From Intestinimonas butyriciproducens (lineage in GTDB: Bacteria > Bacillota > Clostridia > Oscillospirales > Oscillospiraceae): 64,000 nt of DNA. This document shows positions 13,639-45,634 of the stretch, in pieces. Below the pieces are notes generated by a model, which had not been told where the DNA came from, ran no database searches, and saw only the letters and a program-made list of their open reading frames with translations. The position numbers were made by a program, and so were the translations under genes. Location of the stretch: contig NZ_CP011524.1 of assembly GCF_004154955.1 (NCBI RefSeq), positions 62,001 through 126,000 of the forward strand. Direction: 5' to 3'. How positions within the stretch are numbered: the stretch's first letter is position 1; each line of letters begins with the position of its first letter.

Positions 13639-13830
13639 ATGCCTACAATAGAGATAGAGAGCAAGATAGCCGACGCCTTCCGGGGCGGGGAGATCCGCCG
13701 CCGGGAGCTGCGGCTCACCGGCGAGGAGGCCGCGTATATCCGTGCGCATTTCGCCGCCGTGGTCCTCCCCATGGAGCCGGAAGAGGGCAAGAGCTGGTAT
13801 GAAATCACCTTTCGGGGAGCTGAAAACTGA
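13639..13830 (+). CDS. Small protein translationally coupled to the D-Asp ligase-like gene
   Basis: A 63-residue charged, soluble protein that I do not recognise. It begins MPTIEIESKIADAFRGG, is helical by appearance, and ends in a possible beta strand SWYEITFRGAEN. The ATG at 13639 has AGGGAG eight bases upstream; an ATG six bases earlier is in frame but too close to the site. Its stop TGA shares an A with the ATG of the ligase gene (TGATG at 13828-13832), so the two are translationally coupled, which suggests matched amounts or a complex. It has no cysteines, so an amino-group carrier of the LysW type is unlikely. Confidence 0.65.
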   Translation: MPTIEIESKIADAFRGGEIRRRELRLTGEEAAYIRAHFAAVVLPMEPEEGKSWYEITFRGAEN

Positions 13831-15038
13831 TGGAGACATCCTTCCTGCCCCTCCTGTTCGGCGGGGATATCAACGTGTACAGCATGGCCCGGGCCTTTCA
13901 TGAGGCCTACGGCATCCGGTCCACCGCCTACGGCAAGTTTGCCACCGGCGTGTGCTATGAGAGCGCCATTTTGGACTACCGGGTCTGCGCCCAAAATGAG
14001 GACGGGCCCACGTTCTTCCAAAACGTGTGCGGCTATGCCGGGGAGCACCCGGACAAGACGGTGCTGGTCATCGGCTGCGGCGACAGCTATGTGAAGCTGG
14101 CGGCCCGCTACCGGGATCAGTTCCCCGCCAACGTGATCGCCCCCTACATCGACTACGATCTGATGGACCGGCTCACCAACAAGGAGAAATTCTATGAGCT
14201 GTGCGACCAGTTCGGCATCGACCACCCCGGCACCTTCGTCTACCGCCGGGAGATGGGCTATGACTTCCAGCTCCCCTTCGGCGCCCCTTACATCTGTAAG
14301 CCCTCCAACGGCGTGGCCTACTGGGAGCACGATTTCCCCGGCAGCGAGAAGGTGTTCTGCCTCCCCACCCGGGAGGCGCTGGAGACCACCCTGGACAAAG
14401 TCTACGCCGCCGGGTACCCCGACTCCATGATCATTCAGGAGTTCATCCCCGGGGACGACAGCTTCATGCGGGTGCTCACCTGCTACTCCGGCGCCGACGC
14501 CAAGGTCAGGCTCATGTGCCTGGGCCACGTGCTTCTGGAGGAGCACACCCCCCACGGCGTCGGCAATCACGCCGTCATCATCACCGAGCCCAACGACGAG
14601 CTGTGCGAAAAATTCCGGCTCTTTCTGGAGGCCCTGCACTTTACCGGCTTTTCCAACTTCGACATCAAGTACGACCAGCGGGACGGGAAATTCAAGGCCT
14701 TTGAGATCAACACCCGCCAGGGGCGCAGCAACTACTACGTCACCGGCGCGGGATACAACCTGGCACGGATTCTGGTGGAGGACCGGGTGGAGCACAGGCC
14801 CCAGCCGCTCACCGTCACCCACAACCGCTCCCTGTGGATGGTGGTCCCCCGCAGGGTGGCCTACGAGTACACCCCCAGGCGCTATCACCAGGAGATGCGC
14901 GCCCTCATCCAGGCGGGAGCGGTCACCAATCCCTTGCGGTACGGCCCGGATTCCGCCCTGAAGCGGAAGCTGAAGCTGGAGAAGAACCAACTGGGGCACT
15001 TCGTCAAATTCAAAAAGTACTACCACCGGCCGGAATAG
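13830..15038 (+). CDS. ATP-grasp ligase, D-aspartate ligase (Asl)-like
   Basis: A 402-residue ATP-grasp enzyme. Its landmarks match the D-aspartate ligase of Enterococcus faecium as I remember it: FGGDINVYSMARAFHEAYG at the N-terminus, PYIDYDLMDRLTNK, IIQEFIPGDDSFMRVL, LMCLGHVLLEEHTP, and the metal/ATP site FSNFDIKYDQRDG with FEINTRQGRS. That enzyme adds D-Asp through its beta-carboxylate to the side chain of L-Lys in peptidoglycan precursors. The aspartate racemase 35 bases downstream supplies D-Asp, as in E. faecium, where ligase and racemase genes are adjacent. Length is normal. The acceptor (Lys or another diamino acid) is not known here. Confidence 0.85.
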   Translation: METSFLPLLFGGDINVYSMARAFHEAYGIRSTAYGKFATGVCYESAILDYRVCAQNEDGPTFFQNVCGYAGEHPDKTVLVIGCGDSYVKLAARYRDQFPANVIAPYIDYDLMDRLTNKEKFYELCDQFGIDHPGTFVYRREMGYDFQLPFGAPYICKPSNGVAYWEHDFPGSEKVFCLPTREALETTLDKVYAAGYPDSMIIQEFIPGDDSFMRVLTCYSGADAKVRLMCLGHVLLEEHTPHGVGNHAVIITEPNDELCEKFRLFLEALHFTGFSNFDIKYDQRDGKFKAFEINTRQGRSNYYVTGAGYNLARILVEDRVEHRPQPLTVTHNRSLWMVVPRRVAYEYTPRRYHQEMRALIQAGAVTNPLRYGPDSALKRKLKLEKNQLGHFVKFKKYYHRPE

Positions 15039-15072: not shown

Positions 15073-15780
15073 ATGGAACAAGAGCAGCGCCTGGGCATTT
15101 TGGGGGGGATGGGCCCCCAGGCCACCCAGGTCTTTTACCAGCGGATCCTGGACAAGACCGATGCATCCCGGGACCAGGAGCACGTGCCCACCCTGATCTG
15201 GAGCGACACCGGGATGCCCGACCGCACCCGGGCCATCCTCTCCGGGGAGACGGAGCCGGTTTTTGCCCGGCTGCTCTCCGGCGCCCGCCTGCTGGAGCGG
15301 GAGGGCTGCACCGTGCTGGCCATCCCCTGCAACACCTCCCATTTTTTTGCCGACCGTCTCCAGGCCGGGCTGCGGATCCGCCTTTTGAACATGGTGCGCC
15401 TCTCGGCGGCGGCCATGGCGGCCCGGGGATGTCGGCGGGTGGGCATCCTGGCCACCGACGGCACGGTGCGCACCGGCATCTACCAGCGGGAGTGCGCCGG
15501 GCAGGGCGTGGAGGCCGTGGTCCCGGGGCCCCAGGCCCAGGCCCTCACCATGAGCATCATTTACGACGAGATCAAGCGGGGAGAGAGCGGCTCCCGGGAG
15601 AAGTTCGCCGCCATCGACCGGGACCTCCGGTCCCAGGGGTGCGACGGCGCCATCCTGGCCTGTACGGAGCTGTCGGTGTACAAGGAGTATCACGGTGTGT
15701 CGGAGCTGTACCTGGACGCGATGGACGTGCTGGCCGAGGAGAGCATCCGGGCCTGCGGATATCCCCTACGGAGCGTGTAG
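15073..15780 (+). CDS. Aspartate/glutamate racemase
   Basis: A 235-residue PLP-independent racemase of the Asp/Glu/hydantoin family. It starts LGILGGMGPQAT, the typical aspartate racemase opening, and has both catalytic cysteines: C86 in IPCNTSH and C197 in LACTELS. It interconverts L- and D-aspartate (D-glutamate is possible). GGAGG precedes the ATG. It is co-directional with the D-Asp ligase-like gene, so the pair can make and attach D-Asp to the cell wall. Its last 15 bases overlap the end of a convergent small gene. Confidence 0.9.
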   Translation: MEQEQRLGILGGMGPQATQVFYQRILDKTDASRDQEHVPTLIWSDTGMPDRTRAILSGETEPVFARLLSGARLLEREGCTVLAIPCNTSHFFADRLQAGLRIRLLNMVRLSAAAMAARGCRRVGILATDGTVRTGIYQRECAGQGVEAVVPGPQAQALTMSIIYDEIKRGESGSREKFAAIDRDLRSQGCDGAILACTELSVYKEYHGVSELYLDAMDVLAEESIRACGYPLRSV

Positions 15781-16032: not shown

Positions 16033-16245
16033 ATGGAAATTTTGGCGCAACGTATGCGGAGCTTGCGGAAAGAACGGCATATACGCCAGGAAGTCATGGC
16101 AGAGGCCCTTGGCGTCTCTATCAGCGCCTACCGCCGGTATGAGCTCAATGAGCGGGAACCCGCAGCTCCCTTCCTTGTGGACTTTGCCGACTACTTTGGC
16201 GTTTCAACGGACTACCTGCTGGGCCGCAGGGACGAACGGTTGTAG
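16033..16245 (+). CDS. XRE-family transcriptional regulator
   Basis: A 70-residue protein that is almost entirely one lambda-repressor-like helix-turn-helix: RMRSLRKERHIRQEVMAEAL, then GVSISAYRRYELNEREP and a C-terminal YFGVSTDYLLGR. It has no effector domain, so it probably acts as a simple dimeric repressor, most likely of itself and of the divergent 67-residue gene through the twin operators upstream. The pair interrupts the cell-wall locus between the racemase and the Mur ligase fusion. Confidence 0.9.
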   Translation: MEILAQRMRSLRKERHIRQEVMAEALGVSISAYRRYELNEREPAAPFLVDFADYFGVSTDYLLGRRDERL

Positions 16246-16840: not shown

Positions 16841-19231
16841 ATGATGGTCCTCCCCATCCGCCCGCTGGGCGATTACTGGCAGCTTTTACAGAAACACGGC
16901 CTCCTCTCCTCGGACAAGCCCCTCCCGGCGGAGCTGCTCTCCCGCCCGGTGCACCTGGTCTCCTGCGACTCCCAGGCCGTGGAGCCGGGGACCCTCTTCA
17001 TCGTCAAGGGGGCCCACTTCCGGGGGCGGTACCTGGCGGACGCGCTGGAAAAAGGGGCCTTCGTCTACCTCTCCGACCATGTGTGGGAGGAGGCGGGCGC
17101 GGCCCCCTGCCTGCTGGTGCGGGACGTGCGCAGGGCTATGGCGCTGCTGGCCGACTTCTACTACGACCACCCCAGCGGCAAGCTCAGCGTGGTGGGGATC
17201 ACCGGCACCAAGGGCAAGTCCTCCACCACGTACTACCTCAAATATATCTTTGACGAGTACCTCTCCGCCAGGAAAAAGCGGCCCAGCGGCGTCATCTCCT
17301 CCATCGACACTTTTGACGGCGTGGAGCGGTTCGAATCCCACCTCACCACGCCGGAGCCCCTGGACCTGGAGCGCCATTTTGCCAACGCCGTGTCCTCCGG
17401 CCTGGAGTACCTCACCATGGAGGTCTCCAGCCAGGCCCTGAAGTACGACCGCATGGACGGCGTGGATCTCTCCGCCGCCGTCTTTCTCAATATCGGCTAT
17501 GACCACATCTCCCCCATTGAGCACCCGGATTTTGAGGACTACTTCGCCTCCAAGCTGAAGATCTTCGCCCACTCCGACCTGGCGGTGGTGAACCTGGACG
17601 CCGACGAGGTGCCCCGGGTCCTCAACGCCGCCCGGGAGCACTGCTCCAGGGTCCTCACCTTCTCCGAGCAGGACCCGGCGGCCGCCGTGTTCGGCTCCCA
17701 GGTCCGCAAGCAGGGCCACGACATCCTCTTCCGGGTCAAGACCCCCCGCTTCAGCCGGGAGTTCCGGCTGACCATGCCGGGGCTCTTCAACGTGCAGAAC
17801 GCCCTGGCCGCCATCGCGGTGTGCGAGGGCCTGGGCATCCCGGAGCAGTGCATCTACGTGGGCCTCATGAAGGCCCGGGTGCCCGGCCGCATGGAGGTCT
17901 ATCAGAATGCCAACGGGCGCATCACCGCCATTGTGGATTACGCCCACAACCGCCTCTCCTTTGAGAAGCTCTTCCTCTCCGTGAAGGAGGAGTACCCTGG
18001 CCGGCGGGTAGTCATCGTCTTCGGCTGTCCGGGCAAAAAGGCTCTGGACCGCCGGAAGGACCTCAGCGAGATCGCCGCCCGGTACGCCGATCTGGTGGTC
18101 ATCACCGAGGAGGACCCCGGCGAGGAGGACGTGCTGGATATTTCCCGGGAGATGGCCGCCCATGTGGAGAACGTGGGCTGCGACTACTCCATCGAGCCCG
18201 ACCGGGGCGAGGCCATCCGCATGGCCGTCATGGGCAGCGAGACGCCCACCGTCATTCTCATCACCGGCAAGGGGGCGGAGACCCGCCAGAAGCGGGGCAC
18301 CGCCTATATCGACTGCGTTTCCGATGTGGAGTACACCAAGCGGTACCTCCACGAATACGACGTGAGCCACCATCTGGACGGCATGGAAAAGGTACTGGGC
18401 CTTTTGGACACCCTGCCCCGTCTGGCCGAGAGCGCCGGCAGGACGGTGGTGCTCAAATACGGCGGCTCCGCCCTGGGCGAGAACGGCGCGGTGGACTCCA
18501 TCCTCCGGGACGTGGCCGCCCTCCAGATGGCGGGAGTCCACGTGGTCCTGGTCCACGGCGGCGGCAGGAGCATCACCGGCTGGCTCTCCCGCATGGGGGA
18601 GGAGAGCGTGTTTCGGGACGGCTACCGGGTCACGGACGACACCGCCATGGACGTGGCGGAGATGGTCCTCTCCGGCCAGGTCAACAAGCAGGTGGTATTG
18701 GCTCTGCGGAAGCTGGGGGTGAAGGCGGCCGGCGTCTCCGGAAAGGACGGCGGCATCCTGAAGGCCAGATGCAAGGACCCGGCCCTGGGCCACGTGGGGG
18801 AGATCGTCTCCGCCGACGCCGCCCTCATCCGGACGCTGCTCACCGGGGGCTATGTGCCCGTGATCTCCCCGGTTGCCGCGGGGGAAAGCTGGGAAAGCTA
18901 TAACTGCAACGCCGACGACGCGGCCTGCGCCGTGGCCGAGGCGCTGAAGGCGGACAAGCTGGTTTTCCTCACCGACGTGGACGGCATTCTGATGGACAGC
19001 CGCAACGCCAAGACGGCCATCTCCTCCCTCACCGCCTCGGAGGCCAGGGAGCTGCTGGACAGTGGCCTCATCCAGGGCGGCATGGTGCCCAAGCTGAGAA
19101 GCTGCGTCCGGGCCCTGGAGAACGGCGTGTCCAAGGTGGCTGTGCTGGACGGACGCATCGACCATGTGATGCTGCTGGACGCCGTGTCCGGCCAGACCAT
19201 GGGCACCACGCTTCGCCGGGACGAGGCATGA
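16841..19231 (+). CDS. Fusion of a MurE-type Mur ligase and an acetylglutamate kinase (ArgB) domain
   Basis: A 796-residue single frame with two complete enzymes. Residues 1 to about 505 form a Mur ligase: P-loop TGTKGKSSTT at about 121-130, HLTTPEPLDL, MEVSSQALKYDRMDGV, NIGYDHISPIEHPDFEDYF, DYAHNR and TGKGAET. The substrate-reading loop is EEDPGEED (423-430), without the arginine of DAP-adding enzymes (DNPR). Residues 515-796 are a full ArgB-type kinase: K539-Y-G-G-S, VHGGGRSI, RVTDDTAMDVAEMVLSG, GVSGKDGG, NADDAACAVAEAL and a GGMVPKL/DGRIDH C-terminus. Start at the tandem ATGs at 16841/16844 after GAGGTGA. The Mur part would add the third stem-peptide residue to UDP-MurNAc-Ala-Glu; the role of the kinase part is unclear. 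An internal ATG at 18383 could give a separate kinase. Confidence 0.88.
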   Translation: MMVLPIRPLGDYWQLLQKHGLLSSDKPLPAELLSRPVHLVSCDSQAVEPGTLFIVKGAHFRGRYLADALEKGAFVYLSDHVWEEAGAAPCLLVRDVRRAMALLADFYYDHPSGKLSVVGITGTKGKSSTTYYLKYIFDEYLSARKKRPSGVISSIDTFDGVERFESHLTTPEPLDLERHFANAVSSGLEYLTMEVSSQALKYDRMDGVDLSAAVFLNIGYDHISPIEHPDFEDYFASKLKIFAHSDLAVVNLDADEVPRVLNAAREHCSRVLTFSEQDPAAAVFGSQVRKQGHDILFRVKTPRFSREFRLTMPGLFNVQNALAAIAVCEGLGIPEQCIYVGLMKARVPGRMEVYQNANGRITAIVDYAHNRLSFEKLFLSVKEEYPGRRVVIVFGCPGKKALDRRKDLSEIAARYADLVVITEEDPGEEDVLDISREMAAHVENVGCDYSIEPDRGEAIRMAVMGSETPTVILITGKGAETRQKRGTAYIDCVSDVEYTKRYLHEYDVSHHLDGMEKVLGLLDTLPRLAESAGRTVVLKYGGSALGENGAVDSILRDVAALQMAGVHVVLVHGGGRSITGWLSRMGEESVFRDGYRVTDDTAMDVAEMVLSGQVNKQVVLALRKLGVKAAGVSGKDGGILKARCKDPALGHVGEIVSADAALIRTLLTGGYVPVISPVAAGESWESYNCNADDAACAVAEALKADKLVFLTDVDGILMDSRNAKTAISSLTASEARELLDSGLIQGGMVPKLRSCVRALENGVSKVAVLDGRIDHVMLLDAVSGQTMGTTLRRDEA

Positions 19232-42518: not shown

Positions 42519-42774
42519 GGCAATAGGAAAAACGCGTGGAAAAGGACGAGTAGCGCCCCTGTAACCGTACAGAGAGCCGCCGTTTGGGTGAGAGGCGGAC
42601 GGAGAAGGGGTGGGAAGATCACCTTGGAGCGTTCCGCTGAAGGAGGAGTAGGCGGCTACGGTTGGCCCCGTTACCGGCCATGCGAGGGGCCGCGGCATGT
42701 CCGCGGCAAGAAGAGTGGTACCGCAGAGGCTTTCAACGCCTTTGTCTCTTTTTGGAGAGACAAAGGCGTTTTTT
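42519..42774 (+). ncRNA. T-box riboswitch for isoleucine
   Basis: The leader of ileS has the hallmarks of a T-box: a long stem I with an ATC codon at the specifier position (GGGAAGATCACC, ATC at 42618-42620), the conserved T-box sequence AAGAGTGGTACCGC (42711-42724), and a terminator. Uncharged tRNA-Ile pairs with the ATC specifier and its free ACCA end pairs with TGGT in the antiterminator, allowing read-through into ileS. The specifier codon agrees with the downstream synthetase. Confidence 0.93.
42735..42774 (+). terminator. T-box-controlled terminator
   Basis: AACGCCTTTGTCTCT (42735-42749) pairs with AGAGACAAAGGCGTT (42756-42770), followed by a T-run. The left arm overlaps the sequence just after the T-box motif, as needed for antiterminator competition. 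Confidence 0.9.
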
Positions 42775-42829: not shown

Positions 42830-45634
42830 ATGGACTATAATAAGACCGTCAACCTGCCCCAGACCGATTTCCCCATGCGGGCGGGGCTCCCCAGGCGCGA
42901 GCCAGAGATGCTCCAGGCGATGTATGACAAGGACCTCTACCACAAGATGGTCGCCCGTAACGACGGGAAACCCCTCTTCGTCCTCCACGACGGGCCTCCC
43001 TACGCCAACGGAAACATCCACATCGGTACCGCGCTGAACAAGATCCTCAAGGATATCATCGTCAAAGAGAAAAACATGACGGGCTACTGCTCCCCCTATG
43101 TCCCCGGCTGGGACACCCACGGCCTGCCCATCGAATCCGCCATCCTGAAAAACAAAAAGGTGAAGCGGGATGCGCTCACCACCTCCGAGTTTCGGGAGAA
43201 GTGCAAGGAGTACGCCCTTGATTTTGTGGACAAGCAGCGGGAGCAGTTCAAGCGCCTGGGCGTGCTGGGAGAGTGGGACGATCCCTACCTCACGCTGAAG
43301 CCCCATTTTGAAGCCAAGCAGGTGAAGGTGTTTGGCGAGATGGCCAAAAAGGGCTTTATCTATAAGGGGATGAAGCCGGTGTACTGGTGCCCCCATGACC
43401 AGACCGCCCTGGCCGAGGCCGAGATCGAGTATGCCGACGACCCCTGCACCACCATCTTCGTGAAGTTCCCTGTCCGCGACGACAAGGGAATGCTGGCCCA
43501 ATACTGCGACCTCTCCAAGCTCTTCTTCGTCATCTGGACCACCACGCCCTGGACCATCCCGGGCAATATGGCCATCTGCCTCAACGCCGAGCTGGACTAT
43601 GTGCTGCTGGAGGTTCCCTCCGGAGAAGTCTATGTCCTGGCCCAGACCCTGGCCGAGGGCGTATGCAAGGCTGCGGGCATTGATTTCGGCGCCTGCAAGG
43701 TGCTGGCCACCCTCAAGGGCGCCGCGTTCGAGCTCATGACCGCCGCTCACCCGCTTTTCGACCGGGACTCCGTGATCCTCAACGGTGAGCACGTCACCCT
43801 GGACGCCGGCACCGGCTGCGTGCACACCGCCCCCGGCTTCGGCGCGGAGGACTTCCAGATCTGCCAGCAGTACGACAAGGCGGGCCTCACCCACATCGGC
43901 GTGCCCGTGCCGGTGAACGCCAAGGGCGTTATGACCGACGAGCGGTACAACGGACAGTTCTACGCCGTGGGCAACGACATGGTGGTGGAGGATCTGGGCG
44001 CCTGCGGGGCGCTGCTTGCCAGCGAGAAGATTACCCACTCCTACCCCCACTGCTGGCGCTGCAAGCACCCCATCATCTACCGCGCCACAGAGCAGTGGTT
44101 CTGCTCCGTGGACGCCATCAAGGACGCGGCGGTGAAGGCCTGCGACGCCATCCAGTGGAAGCCCGACTGGGGCAAAGACCGCATGACCTCCATGATCACC
44201 GAGCGCAACGACTGGTGCATCAGCCGCCAGCGGGTCTGGGGCGTGCCCATCCCCATCTTCTACTGCGACGCCTGCGGCGCGGATATCGTCACCCCTGAGA
44301 CCATCGACCACGTCTCCGAGCTGTTCCGGGCGCACGGGTCCAACGTCTGGTTCGACCGGGAGGCCGAAGAGCTGCTCCCCGACGGATTCAAATGTCCCAA
44401 GTGCGGCCACACCCATTTTACCAAGGAGACCGACATCATGGATGTGTGGTTCGACTCCGGCTCCACCCACGCCGCCGTCCTGGACGAGCGCCCCTATCTC
44501 CACTTCCCCGCCGACATCTATCTGGAGGGCGGCGACCAGTACCGCGGCTGGTTCCAATCCTCTATGCTCACCAGCATCGCCGCCAAGGGCGTGGCGCCCT
44601 ACCGGCAGATCATCACCCACGGCTGGACCGTGGACGGCGAGGGCCGGGCCATGCACAAGTCCCTGGGCAACGCCGTGGCGCCCGAAGAGATCATCAAGGA
44701 CTACGGCGCGGACATGCTCCGGCTGTGGGTGGCCTCCGCCGACTACACCCAGGATATGCGCATCTCCAAGGACATCATGAAGCAGCTCTCCGAGGCCTAC
44801 CTCAAGATCCGCAATACCGCCCGGTATATGCTGGGCAACCTGGCGGGCTTTGATCCGGACAGGGATCAGGTGCCCTACGCCCAGATGCAGGCGCTGGACC
44901 GGTACGCCCTCTCCCGCTACAACGAGCTGGTAAAGACCGTCCGCGCCGCCTATGACCGGTATGAGTTCCATGCCGTCTACCGCGCGGTTTACAATTTCTG
45001 CGTCATCGATCTGTCCAACCTGTACCTGGATGTCATCAAGGACCGTCTCTACTGCGAGGGGGCCTCCTCCCCGGAGCGCCGCTCCGCCCAGACCGCCCTG
45101 TATGTCATTCTGGACGGCATGACCCGGCTCATCGCCCCCATCCTGGCCTTTACCTCCGACGAGATCTGGGCCGCCATGCCCCACGCCGCCTCCGACAACG
45201 GCGAGAGCGTCCTGCTCAACGACATGCCCGACGCTTCGCCGGCCCTGGCGCTGGACGAGTCCGCCGCCGGGCGCTGGGACAAGCTCATCTCTCTCCGCGA
45301 CGCCGTGAACAAAGCCCTGGAAAACGCCCGCAAGGCCGGCGTACTCAAGAAGAACCAGGACGCTGAGATCCGGCTCTGGGTTTCGGAGGAGGACGCCGCC
45401 TTCCTGAAGGACGTGGATCTGGCCACGCTGTGCATCGTCTCGAAGATGGAGGTCCTCACCGGCGACGGCGAGGGAGAGACGGCGGAGGACTGCCTAGTGC
45501 CCGCCACCATCGCTGTGACCCTGTCCGACGCCCCCAAGTGCGTCCGCTGCTGGAACCACAACGGGCATGTGGGCGAGGATCACGACCACGCCGAGCTGTG
45601 CCCCCGCTGTGCCGCAGTGGTGAGAGCCCTGTAA
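42830..45634 (+). CDS. ileS: Isoleucyl-tRNA synthetase
   Basis: A 934-residue class I synthetase of bacterial length. Motifs: NGNIHIGTALNK (HIGH motif), the CP1 editing domain with TTPWTIPGN, GTGCVHTAPGFG and HCWRCKHP, the KMSKS-equivalent MHKSLGNAV, and a C-terminal zinc site (CVRCWNH ... LCPRC). It charges tRNA-Ile and edits valine. The ATG at 42830 follows AAAAGGAG; the frame runs open through the T-box upstream but is not coding there. Expression is controlled by the T-box. Confidence 0.97.
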   Translation: MDYNKTVNLPQTDFPMRAGLPRREPEMLQAMYDKDLYHKMVARNDGKPLFVLHDGPPYANGNIHIGTALNKILKDIIVKEKNMTGYCSPYVPGWDTHGLPIESAILKNKKVKRDALTTSEFREKCKEYALDFVDKQREQFKRLGVLGEWDDPYLTLKPHFEAKQVKVFGEMAKKGFIYKGMKPVYWCPHDQTALAEAEIEYADDPCTTIFVKFPVRDDKGMLAQYCDLSKLFFVIWTTTPWTIPGNMAICLNAELDYVLLEVPSGEVYVLAQTLAEGVCKAAGIDFGACKVLATLKGAAFELMTAAHPLFDRDSVILNGEHVTLDAGTGCVHTAPGFGAEDFQICQQYDKAGLTHIGVPVPVNAKGVMTDERYNGQFYAVGNDMVVEDLGACGALLASEKITHSYPHCWRCKHPIIYRATEQWFCSVDAIKDAAVKACDAIQWKPDWGKDRMTSMITERNDWCISRQRVWGVPIPIFYCDACGADIVTPETIDHVSELFRAHGSNVWFDREAEELLPDGFKCPKCGHTHFTKETDIMDVWFDSGSTHAAVLDERPYLHFPADIYLEGGDQYRGWFQSSMLTSIAAKGVAPYRQIITHGWTVDGEGRAMHKSLGNAVAPEEIIKDYGADMLRLWVASADYTQDMRISKDIMKQLSEAYLKIRNTARYMLGNLAGFDPDRDQVPYAQMQALDRYALSRYNELVKTVRAAYDRYEFHAVYRAVYNFCVIDLSNLYLDVIKDRLYCEGASSPERRSAQTALYVILDGMTRLIAPILAFTSDEIWAAMPHAASDNGESVLLNDMPDASPALALDESAAGRWDKLISLRDAVNKALENARKAGVLKKNQDAEIRLWVSEEDAAFLKDVDLATLCIVSKMEVLTGDGEGETAEDCLVPATIAVTLSDAPKCVRCWNHNGHVGEDHDHAELCPRCAAVVRAL

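Follow-up and report, generated by a model that had tools for sequence, protein, structure and literature searches.

What is a wall-precursor ligase doing in one polypeptide with a kinase of the arginine pathway? The question is raised by a gene in a 64,000-nucleotide stretch of Intestinimonas butyriciproducens DNA (contig NZ_CP011524.1, positions 62,001 to 126,000; hereafter the window). The gene occupies positions 16841..19231 of the forward strand and was translated into 796 residues plus a stop, with no internal stop. A MurE-type ligase (residues 1-505, 16841..18355) is followed by a complete kinase of the ArgB type, N-acetylglutamate kinase (NAGK; residues ~513-792). The explanation we prefer, with confidence standing at about even, is that the protein would be a second, ornithine-adding MurE that carries its own arginine-insensitive acetylglutamate kinase and belongs to a gene module for a D-Asp cross-bridge.

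Pfam placed Mur_ligase_M at residues 120-328, Mur_ligase_C at 349-478 and AA_kinase at 535-769. The NCBIfam model TIGR01085 (murE) scored 310.6 bits (cut-off 257.3), which places the first half among the MurE ligases; TIGR00761 (argB) scored 235.6 bits (cut-off 151.3) and, together with the catalytic residues described below, places the second half among the ArgB kinases. GC content at third codon positions was 0.91 in both halves. Two adjacent ATGs, at 16841 and 16844, were read by eye as candidate starts, each lying 3' of GAGGTG. An AlphaFold2 model gave a mean predicted local distance difference test score (pLDDT) of 85.8 and a predicted template modelling score (pTM) of 0.54, the latter leaving the placement of the domains relative to one another unsure; Foldseek matched the model to both MurE and NAGK structures. 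A frameshift or assembly artefact was ruled out by the open frame and by full-length fusions in many other genomes. The 796-codon in-frame joining of a MurE-type ligase to a full-length kinase, first noticed in a sequence-only reading of this DNA, is thus a real and conserved domain architecture. No earlier description of a MurE-acetylglutamate kinase fusion was found in the open-licence PubMed Central literature.

The full-length fusion was found in 13 of 150 genomes of the family and 9 of 391 of the class, two of the latter being already among the family's 13. The family search also returned one genome (G128) in which the fused kinase is reduced, and 18 with a related ligase lacking the kinase; ten such unfused genomes were found in the class search. 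The ligase type, fused or not, is called MurE2 here. Among named relatives, a full tail was present in 69 of 80 loci (the best 80 of 342), and carriers include Intestinimonas, Pseudoflavonifractor capillosus, Pseudoflavonifractor phocaeensis, Lawsonibacter, Evtepia and [Clostridium] viride DSM 6836. Coding sequences (129) were reduced to 112 by dropping those identical over residues 30-430. Rows cut by a contig end or with a short ligase were left out, and a tree was made from the remaining 109 (71 full fusions, 9 with shortened tails and 29 unfused) plus three references. Placing the four groups on this tree takes 8 changes, where shuffling gave a mean of 37. Fourteen unfused rows make up a clade nested inside the fusions, and the rows with shortened tails fall into two clades. 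In a kinase tree made from a thinned set (41 of the 72 full-length fused kinases), a branch with support 100 separates the fused kinases from the rest. The trees fit one origin of the fusion followed by several later losses, with the deeper branches of the ligase tree partly open.

The fusion is an extra copy of both activities, since the genome (one contig, 3.22 Mb, 99.98% complete) holds a separate argB and a separate DAP-type murE (DAP, diaminopimelate). The sequence-only reading had asked for a second argB to be sought; it is present, and the fused kinase is 42% identical to it. Searches of this genome located the other argB and argC copies ~1.2 Mb from the fusion. Beside the stand-alone argB lie genes for ArgJ (452.9 bits against a cut-off of 298) and for an argD-like transaminase (403.9 against 410.05); an argC_other gene is found upstream (340.6 against 229.85). 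The families run on the window genes beside the fusion cluster included none of arginine type, no gene-by-gene search having been aimed at arginine genes. The other murE scored 542.2 with a DAP-ligase equivalog (cut-off 373) and adjoins a gene for a SpoVD-like penicillin-binding protein (535 bits, below the cut-off of 688). That the fusion might be the only argB was rejected for this genome and, in all, for 19 of 20 fusion genomes. In the twentieth, G037, the fused argB alone was found; its argC contig ends ~860 bases past the argC match, so that an assembly gap may hide a stand-alone copy. An argC-type gene was present in 20/20 fusion genomes and 20/28 unfused MurE2 genomes (Fisher p 0.014, relatedness ignored).

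Which amino acid the ligase adds was approached through its third-residue pocket. The P-loop (TGTKGKSS, residues 121-128) and the carbamylated-Lys position K238 are kept, the latter in 109/109 MurE2 rows. At residues 422-429 (18104..18127, forward strand) TEEDPGEE takes the place of the DNPR of DAP-type MurE and the DNPA of Staphylococcus aureus MurE; the fusions share T-E-E-D-(P/S/A)-G-E-E and have no Arg at the fourth motif position, and the DAP equivalogs among the matches shown were all below cut-off. The other MurEs aligned from these genomes (n = 11) read DNPRT in nine cases and DNPRW in two. Passages of PMC3829189 describe how the fourth-position Arg binds the DAP carboxylate, how Asp-406 and Glu-460 of S. 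aureus MurE, in an acidic pocket, hold the side amine of Lys, that this enzyme accepts L-ornithine with a specificity 400-fold below that for Lys, and that amino acid pool size helps to select residue 3. The loss of the DAP-binding Arg together with the acidic pocket predicts a basic amino acid, ornithine or lysine, as substrate, and addition of a non-DAP basic amino acid by the fused ligase is considered quite probable.

Position 424, matched to Asp-406 by the motif register around Pro and not by a printed alignment to S. aureus MurE (4c12), is Glu in 71/71 full-length fusions and 9/9 with shortened tails. Among the 29 unfused MurE2 it is Glu in 10, Asp in 18 and unread in one; in the nested clade of 14 unfused rows it is Asp in all 13 that could be read. 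The greater length of Glu would match the shorter side chain of ornithine, which we favour somewhat over lysine. The Collinsella MurE compared also has Glu at the equivalent position; its wall is taken by us to be of the ornithine type, an assumption that a literature search did not confirm. In part of the review PMC11382707 a Collinsella paper is cited among the references for Eubacterium wall types that include A4beta.

Here the best-surviving alternative comes in: the ligase would add L-lysine, giving the Lys-D-Asp wall type of many lactobacilli, and the fused domain would be an additional ArgB, insensitive to arginine and serving arginine or polyamine synthesis, with no substrate link between the halves. 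The Lys-type MurE model PRK14022 was the second-best NCBIfam match of the fusion and a Lys ligase of Enterococcus faecalis is 38% identical to it; in S. aureus the choice of residue 3 follows from lysine pools (PMC3829189, in part). The PRK14022 score, however, was 336.9 bits, far under the cut-off of 536, residue 424 is not the Lys-type Asp in any of the 80 fused rows, full and short, Asp-424 appears in the nested clade, where the kinase has been lost, and the fusion has been retained across several families. We regard lysine addition with an unconnected kinase as unlikely, if the most serious competitor.

In the kinase half (residues 535-792, 18443..19216), the statement of the sequence-only reading that all core motifs are present was borne out at the catalytic positions of ArgB: K539, G573-G575, R596, N688, D692, D712 and K751 are kept. 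Across relatives, the positions of Escherichia coli Lys8, Gly11, Gly44-46, Arg66, Asn158, Asp162 and Lys217 are kept in 72/72 full-length fused kinases and in 24/24 stand-alone ArgBs, the latter being a fetched sample of those that exist. The roles of Gly44, Gly46, Arg66 and Asn158 in the E. coli kinase are assumed by us. Lys8, Gly11, Gly45, Asp162 and Lys217 are named as catalytic-site residues in a section of PMC3329491. The fused kinase is therefore very probably, as predicted from its residues, an active acetylglutamate kinase.

The arginine site is altered. The linker and N-helix (residues 511-530, 18371..18430, forward strand) read LPRL in place of the ArgB LPYI, and the Tyr of the LPY motif is present in 0/72 fused kinases against 24/24 stand-alone ArgBs. 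The Gly of the EGIGT motif is likewise absent from all 72 and present in 23/24 stand-alone proteins; T786 occupies the site of this Gly in the window's kinase. The Glu preceding it is retained in 23/72 fused kinases (24/24 stand-alone) and the His in 57/72. By the first two residues the fused kinases fall outside the arginine-inhibited hexameric NAGKs. Both residues, which we take to contact arginine directly, are present in the arginine-complexed or arginine-inhibitable NAGK structures 2bty and 2buf, and the replaced positions fall in the N-helix and the helix H-beta16 loop of the AlphaFold2 model. In section 8 of PMC3329491 the NAGK arginine site is bounded by the N-helix, by helix H and by the loop leading to beta16. 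We think it likely that the fused kinase is insensitive to arginine. Two stand-alone ArgB paralogues show the mirror image: those at L217 5454-6296 (G128) and L218 1575-2432 (G133) have lost the catalytic Lys and other active-site motifs and keep the arginine-site Tyr and Gly; perhaps they serve as dead arginine sensors.

Not every tail is a complete kinase. Nine relatives (L191-L197, L199 and L057) have tails without catalytic residues, a quarter to half of the domain being gone, in which stretches resembling the N-helix and the C-terminal helix were still recognised by eye. Ratios of nonsynonymous to synonymous substitution (dN/dS) for the 214-residue tails were 0.067 and 0.100 in the pairs L191/L193 and L192/L199, equal to those of the ligase halves; the slow evolution of these tails makes a structural or regulatory function likely, at least in that group. 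The 150-residue tails gave 0.42-0.74 in four pairs and are more relaxed. These tails (9/109 rows), their constraint and their surviving helices favour a second alternative, in which the domain would mainly be an oligomerising or regulatory module for the ligase, as an NAGK-type hexamer or metabolite sensor, with catalysis secondary. It is set against the retention of every checked catalytic residue in the 72 full-length kinases, the lack of any kinase domain in 29/109 MurE2 rows and the relaxation of the 150-residue tails, and is rated a little below lysine addition. A structural or regulatory role may coexist with catalysis in the other fusions.

Two genes lie upstream of the fusion on the same strand. 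The first encodes an ATP-grasp ligase of the D-aspartate-ligase type (402 residues, 13830..15038) and the second an Asp/Glu-family amino acid racemase (235 residues, 15073..15780, Pfam PF01177); RelA/SpoT and RecJ genes are found further upstream and an M16 peptidase gene downstream of the fusion. The racemase scored 197.2 with TIGR00035 (cut-off 93.1). For the ATP-grasp protein, a sequence search gave no match in the PDB; it shows 34-38% identity, across nearly its full extent, to genes of Lactobacillus crispatus, Latilactobacillus curvatus and Limosilactobacillus fermentum. By similarity it is a candidate AslA-type D-aspartate ligase, the matched lactobacillal genes being annotated as carboxylate-amine ligase or hypothetical only. 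The L. curvatus homologue adjoins a racemase gene, that of L. crispatus adjoins asnB, and that of L. fermentum has neither. In passages of PMC4155827, AslA (D-Asp ligase) and RacD (racemase) are encoded in one Lactococcus lactis operon and build a D-Asp bridge, and ornithine is reported in the L. fermentum wall. ATP-grasp homologues were also seen in two unannotated phage-deposited records, LT985590.1 2667-3872 (40.5%) and MT835538.1 29401-30600 (34.8%), over nearly the whole length, which hints at phage-borne wall modification.

The linkage was counted over non-redundant loci that have 3.5 kb or more of upstream sequence; 16 full, 3 short and 5 unfused ones had less and were skipped. Both partners were present at 45/55 full-length fusion loci and the ATP-grasp gene at 47/55; the corresponding counts for unfused MurE2 loci were 12/24 and 15/24. 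A genome-wide search for the two genes covered 13 genomes without full adjacency; two more fusion loci missing one or both neighbours, L122 and L161, lay outside it. Both genes were found elsewhere in 10 genomes (5 unfused, G077 and 4 of the Intestinimonas group, whose racemases share just 43-50% identity with that of the window). GC-rich repeats and a small helix-turn-helix gene (16033-16245, forward strand, Pfam HTH_3, 51.2 bits) lie in the 1-kb gap between racemase and fusion; this gap shrinks to ~300 bases in G074, so its contents are not counted as part of the system. No RNA element reached the gathering threshold in the cluster. The sole match in the window was a T-box leader at 42528-42752 (forward strand, 125.3 bits), which overlaps the beginning of a long frame ending at 45634.

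A second MurE accompanies MurE2 almost everywhere: a further match was found in 32/32 MurE2 genomes of the family search, and among a further 30 genome handles (some repeats, some partial second matches) only the unfused G245, 99% complete, has MurE2 as its single MurE match. Matches of G545 repeat those of G159, and those of G550 repeat those of G132. In G066 and G145 the only other MurE match is a ligase with the motif DNPRWEP. A MurE-like ligase, 33-37% identical, lies just downstream of the MurE2 gene in a clade that includes P. capillosus (loci L142, L145-L147, L149, L150, L152, L153, L164, L171 and L198). SpoIVA was found in 47/52 genomes, in 35/37 of high quality and in 16/16 fusion genomes of 90% completeness or higher, G037 having it in two fragments; the high-quality genomes without it are G245 and G242. 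The correlation of SpoIVA with a second MurE hangs on one genome and is a lead. For Intestinimonas and C. viride, the open-licence PubMed Central literature gave no useful information on the type of wall. Within the part of review PMC11382707 that covers wall types, the table is blank for Oscillibacter and gives DAP only for Faecalibacterium.

The other MurE match in all but one of the MurE2 genomes searched, and the scoring of the racemase as a cysteate racemase, would also fit a peptide metabolite made outside the wall by the racemase, ATP-grasp and fusion genes. MurE similarity nevertheless runs from residue 35 onward and includes the N-terminal domain, the ATP-grasp protein resembles lactobacillal ligases, and MurE2 is the sole MurE match of G245; a non-wall product is judged improbable. 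Least likely by a small step is a different gamma-carboxylate substrate for the kinase, for instance D-Glu in the muramyl dipeptide, with the phosphorylation perhaps assisting the ligase, an idea of the sequence-only reading that gains no support: the residues after GGG (Lys for Pro in 68/72) and NAD (Asp for Thr in 71/72) do differ from stand-alone ArgB, so that the substrate may differ, but MurE generates its own acyl phosphate, the ligase still has its P-loop and carbamylated Lys, the kinase shows no change at the Arg66 and Asn158 positions, the domain scores as ArgB with its catalytic residues kept, and an argC-type gene is present in 20/20 fusion genomes.

The companion suggestion of that reading, an ornithine route for the stem peptide, is strengthened by the DAP-blind acidic pocket, the D-Asp-ligase-type neighbours, the loss of the arginine site and the constant presence of argC-type genes. 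In the ornithine explanation, the second, non-DAP MurE would add a basic amino acid, likeliest L-ornithine, to UDP-MurNAc-L-Ala-D-Glu. The fused acetylglutamate kinase, free of arginine feedback inhibition, would hold the committed step toward ornithine open despite plentiful arginine, and ArgC, ArgD and ArgJ would complete the synthesis. The neighbouring racemase would produce D-Asp, which the ATP-grasp ligase would attach as a cross-bridge to the side amine of residue 3. DAP precursor, plausibly for the spore cortex, would come from the separate DNPR-type MurE.

Several observations weigh against this scheme. The evidence at hand does not separate ornithine from lysine: Glu-424 is only suggestive and is older than the fusion, being already present in 10/29 unfused MurE2, and the Deinococcus MurE, considered as an ornithine reference on the presumption that its wall contains ornithine, was dropped because its motif differs and comparison was not possible. 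Stand-alone argB genes accompany the fusion in 19/20 genomes, and the argC matches of the 13 family fusion genomes all lie below the TIGR01850 cut-off; the sister model TIGR01851 was passed in the window's genome, the one of the 13 on which it was run. The nine shortened tails lack the catalytic residues, and the constraint on dead ones (dN/dS 0.07 and 0.10) is not explained by a pure ornithine-supply role. The window's racemase also passes the CuyB cysteate racemase model (212.7, cut-off 190), three related metagenome-assembled genomes with the fusion (G542-544) gave neither ATP-grasp nor racemase gene in the genome search, and G242 has two MurEs yet no SpoIVA. No biochemistry, wall analysis or assay of the fusion was found in the open-licence PubMed Central literature.

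If the ornithine explanation is true, control of the arginine pathway is tied directly to wall chemistry in gut bacteria of poorly known wall structure. Residue 3 has an influence on which of the host receptors and wall hydrolases act on wall fragments. A wider proposal, offered tentatively and below even confidence, is that many spore-forming gut Clostridia may build two peptidoglycans per cell: an ornithine-D-Asp vegetative wall, from a self-supplying MurE with an arginine-blind kinase, and a DAP cortex from the ordinary MurE. In one clade, loss of the kinase with a Glu-to-Asp change in the pocket would have switched ornithine to lysine.

Parts of this system resemble known ones. With Lys-type and other non-DAP MurEs the fusion shares the MurE fold, the P-loop, the carbamylated-Lys position and an acidic residue-3 pocket; it differs in its Glu-Asp-x-Gly motif, its C-terminal kinase and the DAP-type MurE alongside. 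The fused kinase has the catalytic residues and N-helix of hexameric, arginine-inhibited ArgB, but lacks the arginine-site Tyr and Gly (72/72) and is joined to a ligase. The ATP-grasp protein is similar to those of the AslA/Aslfm and RacD systems of Lactococcus, Enterococcus and lactobacilli, with a racemase neighbour as in L. curvatus and unlike L. crispatus and L. fermentum; the window's protein is clostridial and linked to a second MurE, and the likeness runs through lactobacillal genes rather than the assayed AslA/Aslfm sequences. Acetylglutamate kinases of yeast and Xanthomonas are also fused to another domain, as described in part of PMC3329491. In those proteins the second domain is of the acetyltransferase type rather than a wall ligase. 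The closest parallel for the proposed division of labour is Lysinibacillus sphaericus, whose Lys-D-Asp vegetative wall and DAP cortex would need two MurEs; we know of no kinase fusion there, and ornithine is proposed instead for the genomes in which ligase and kinase are fused.

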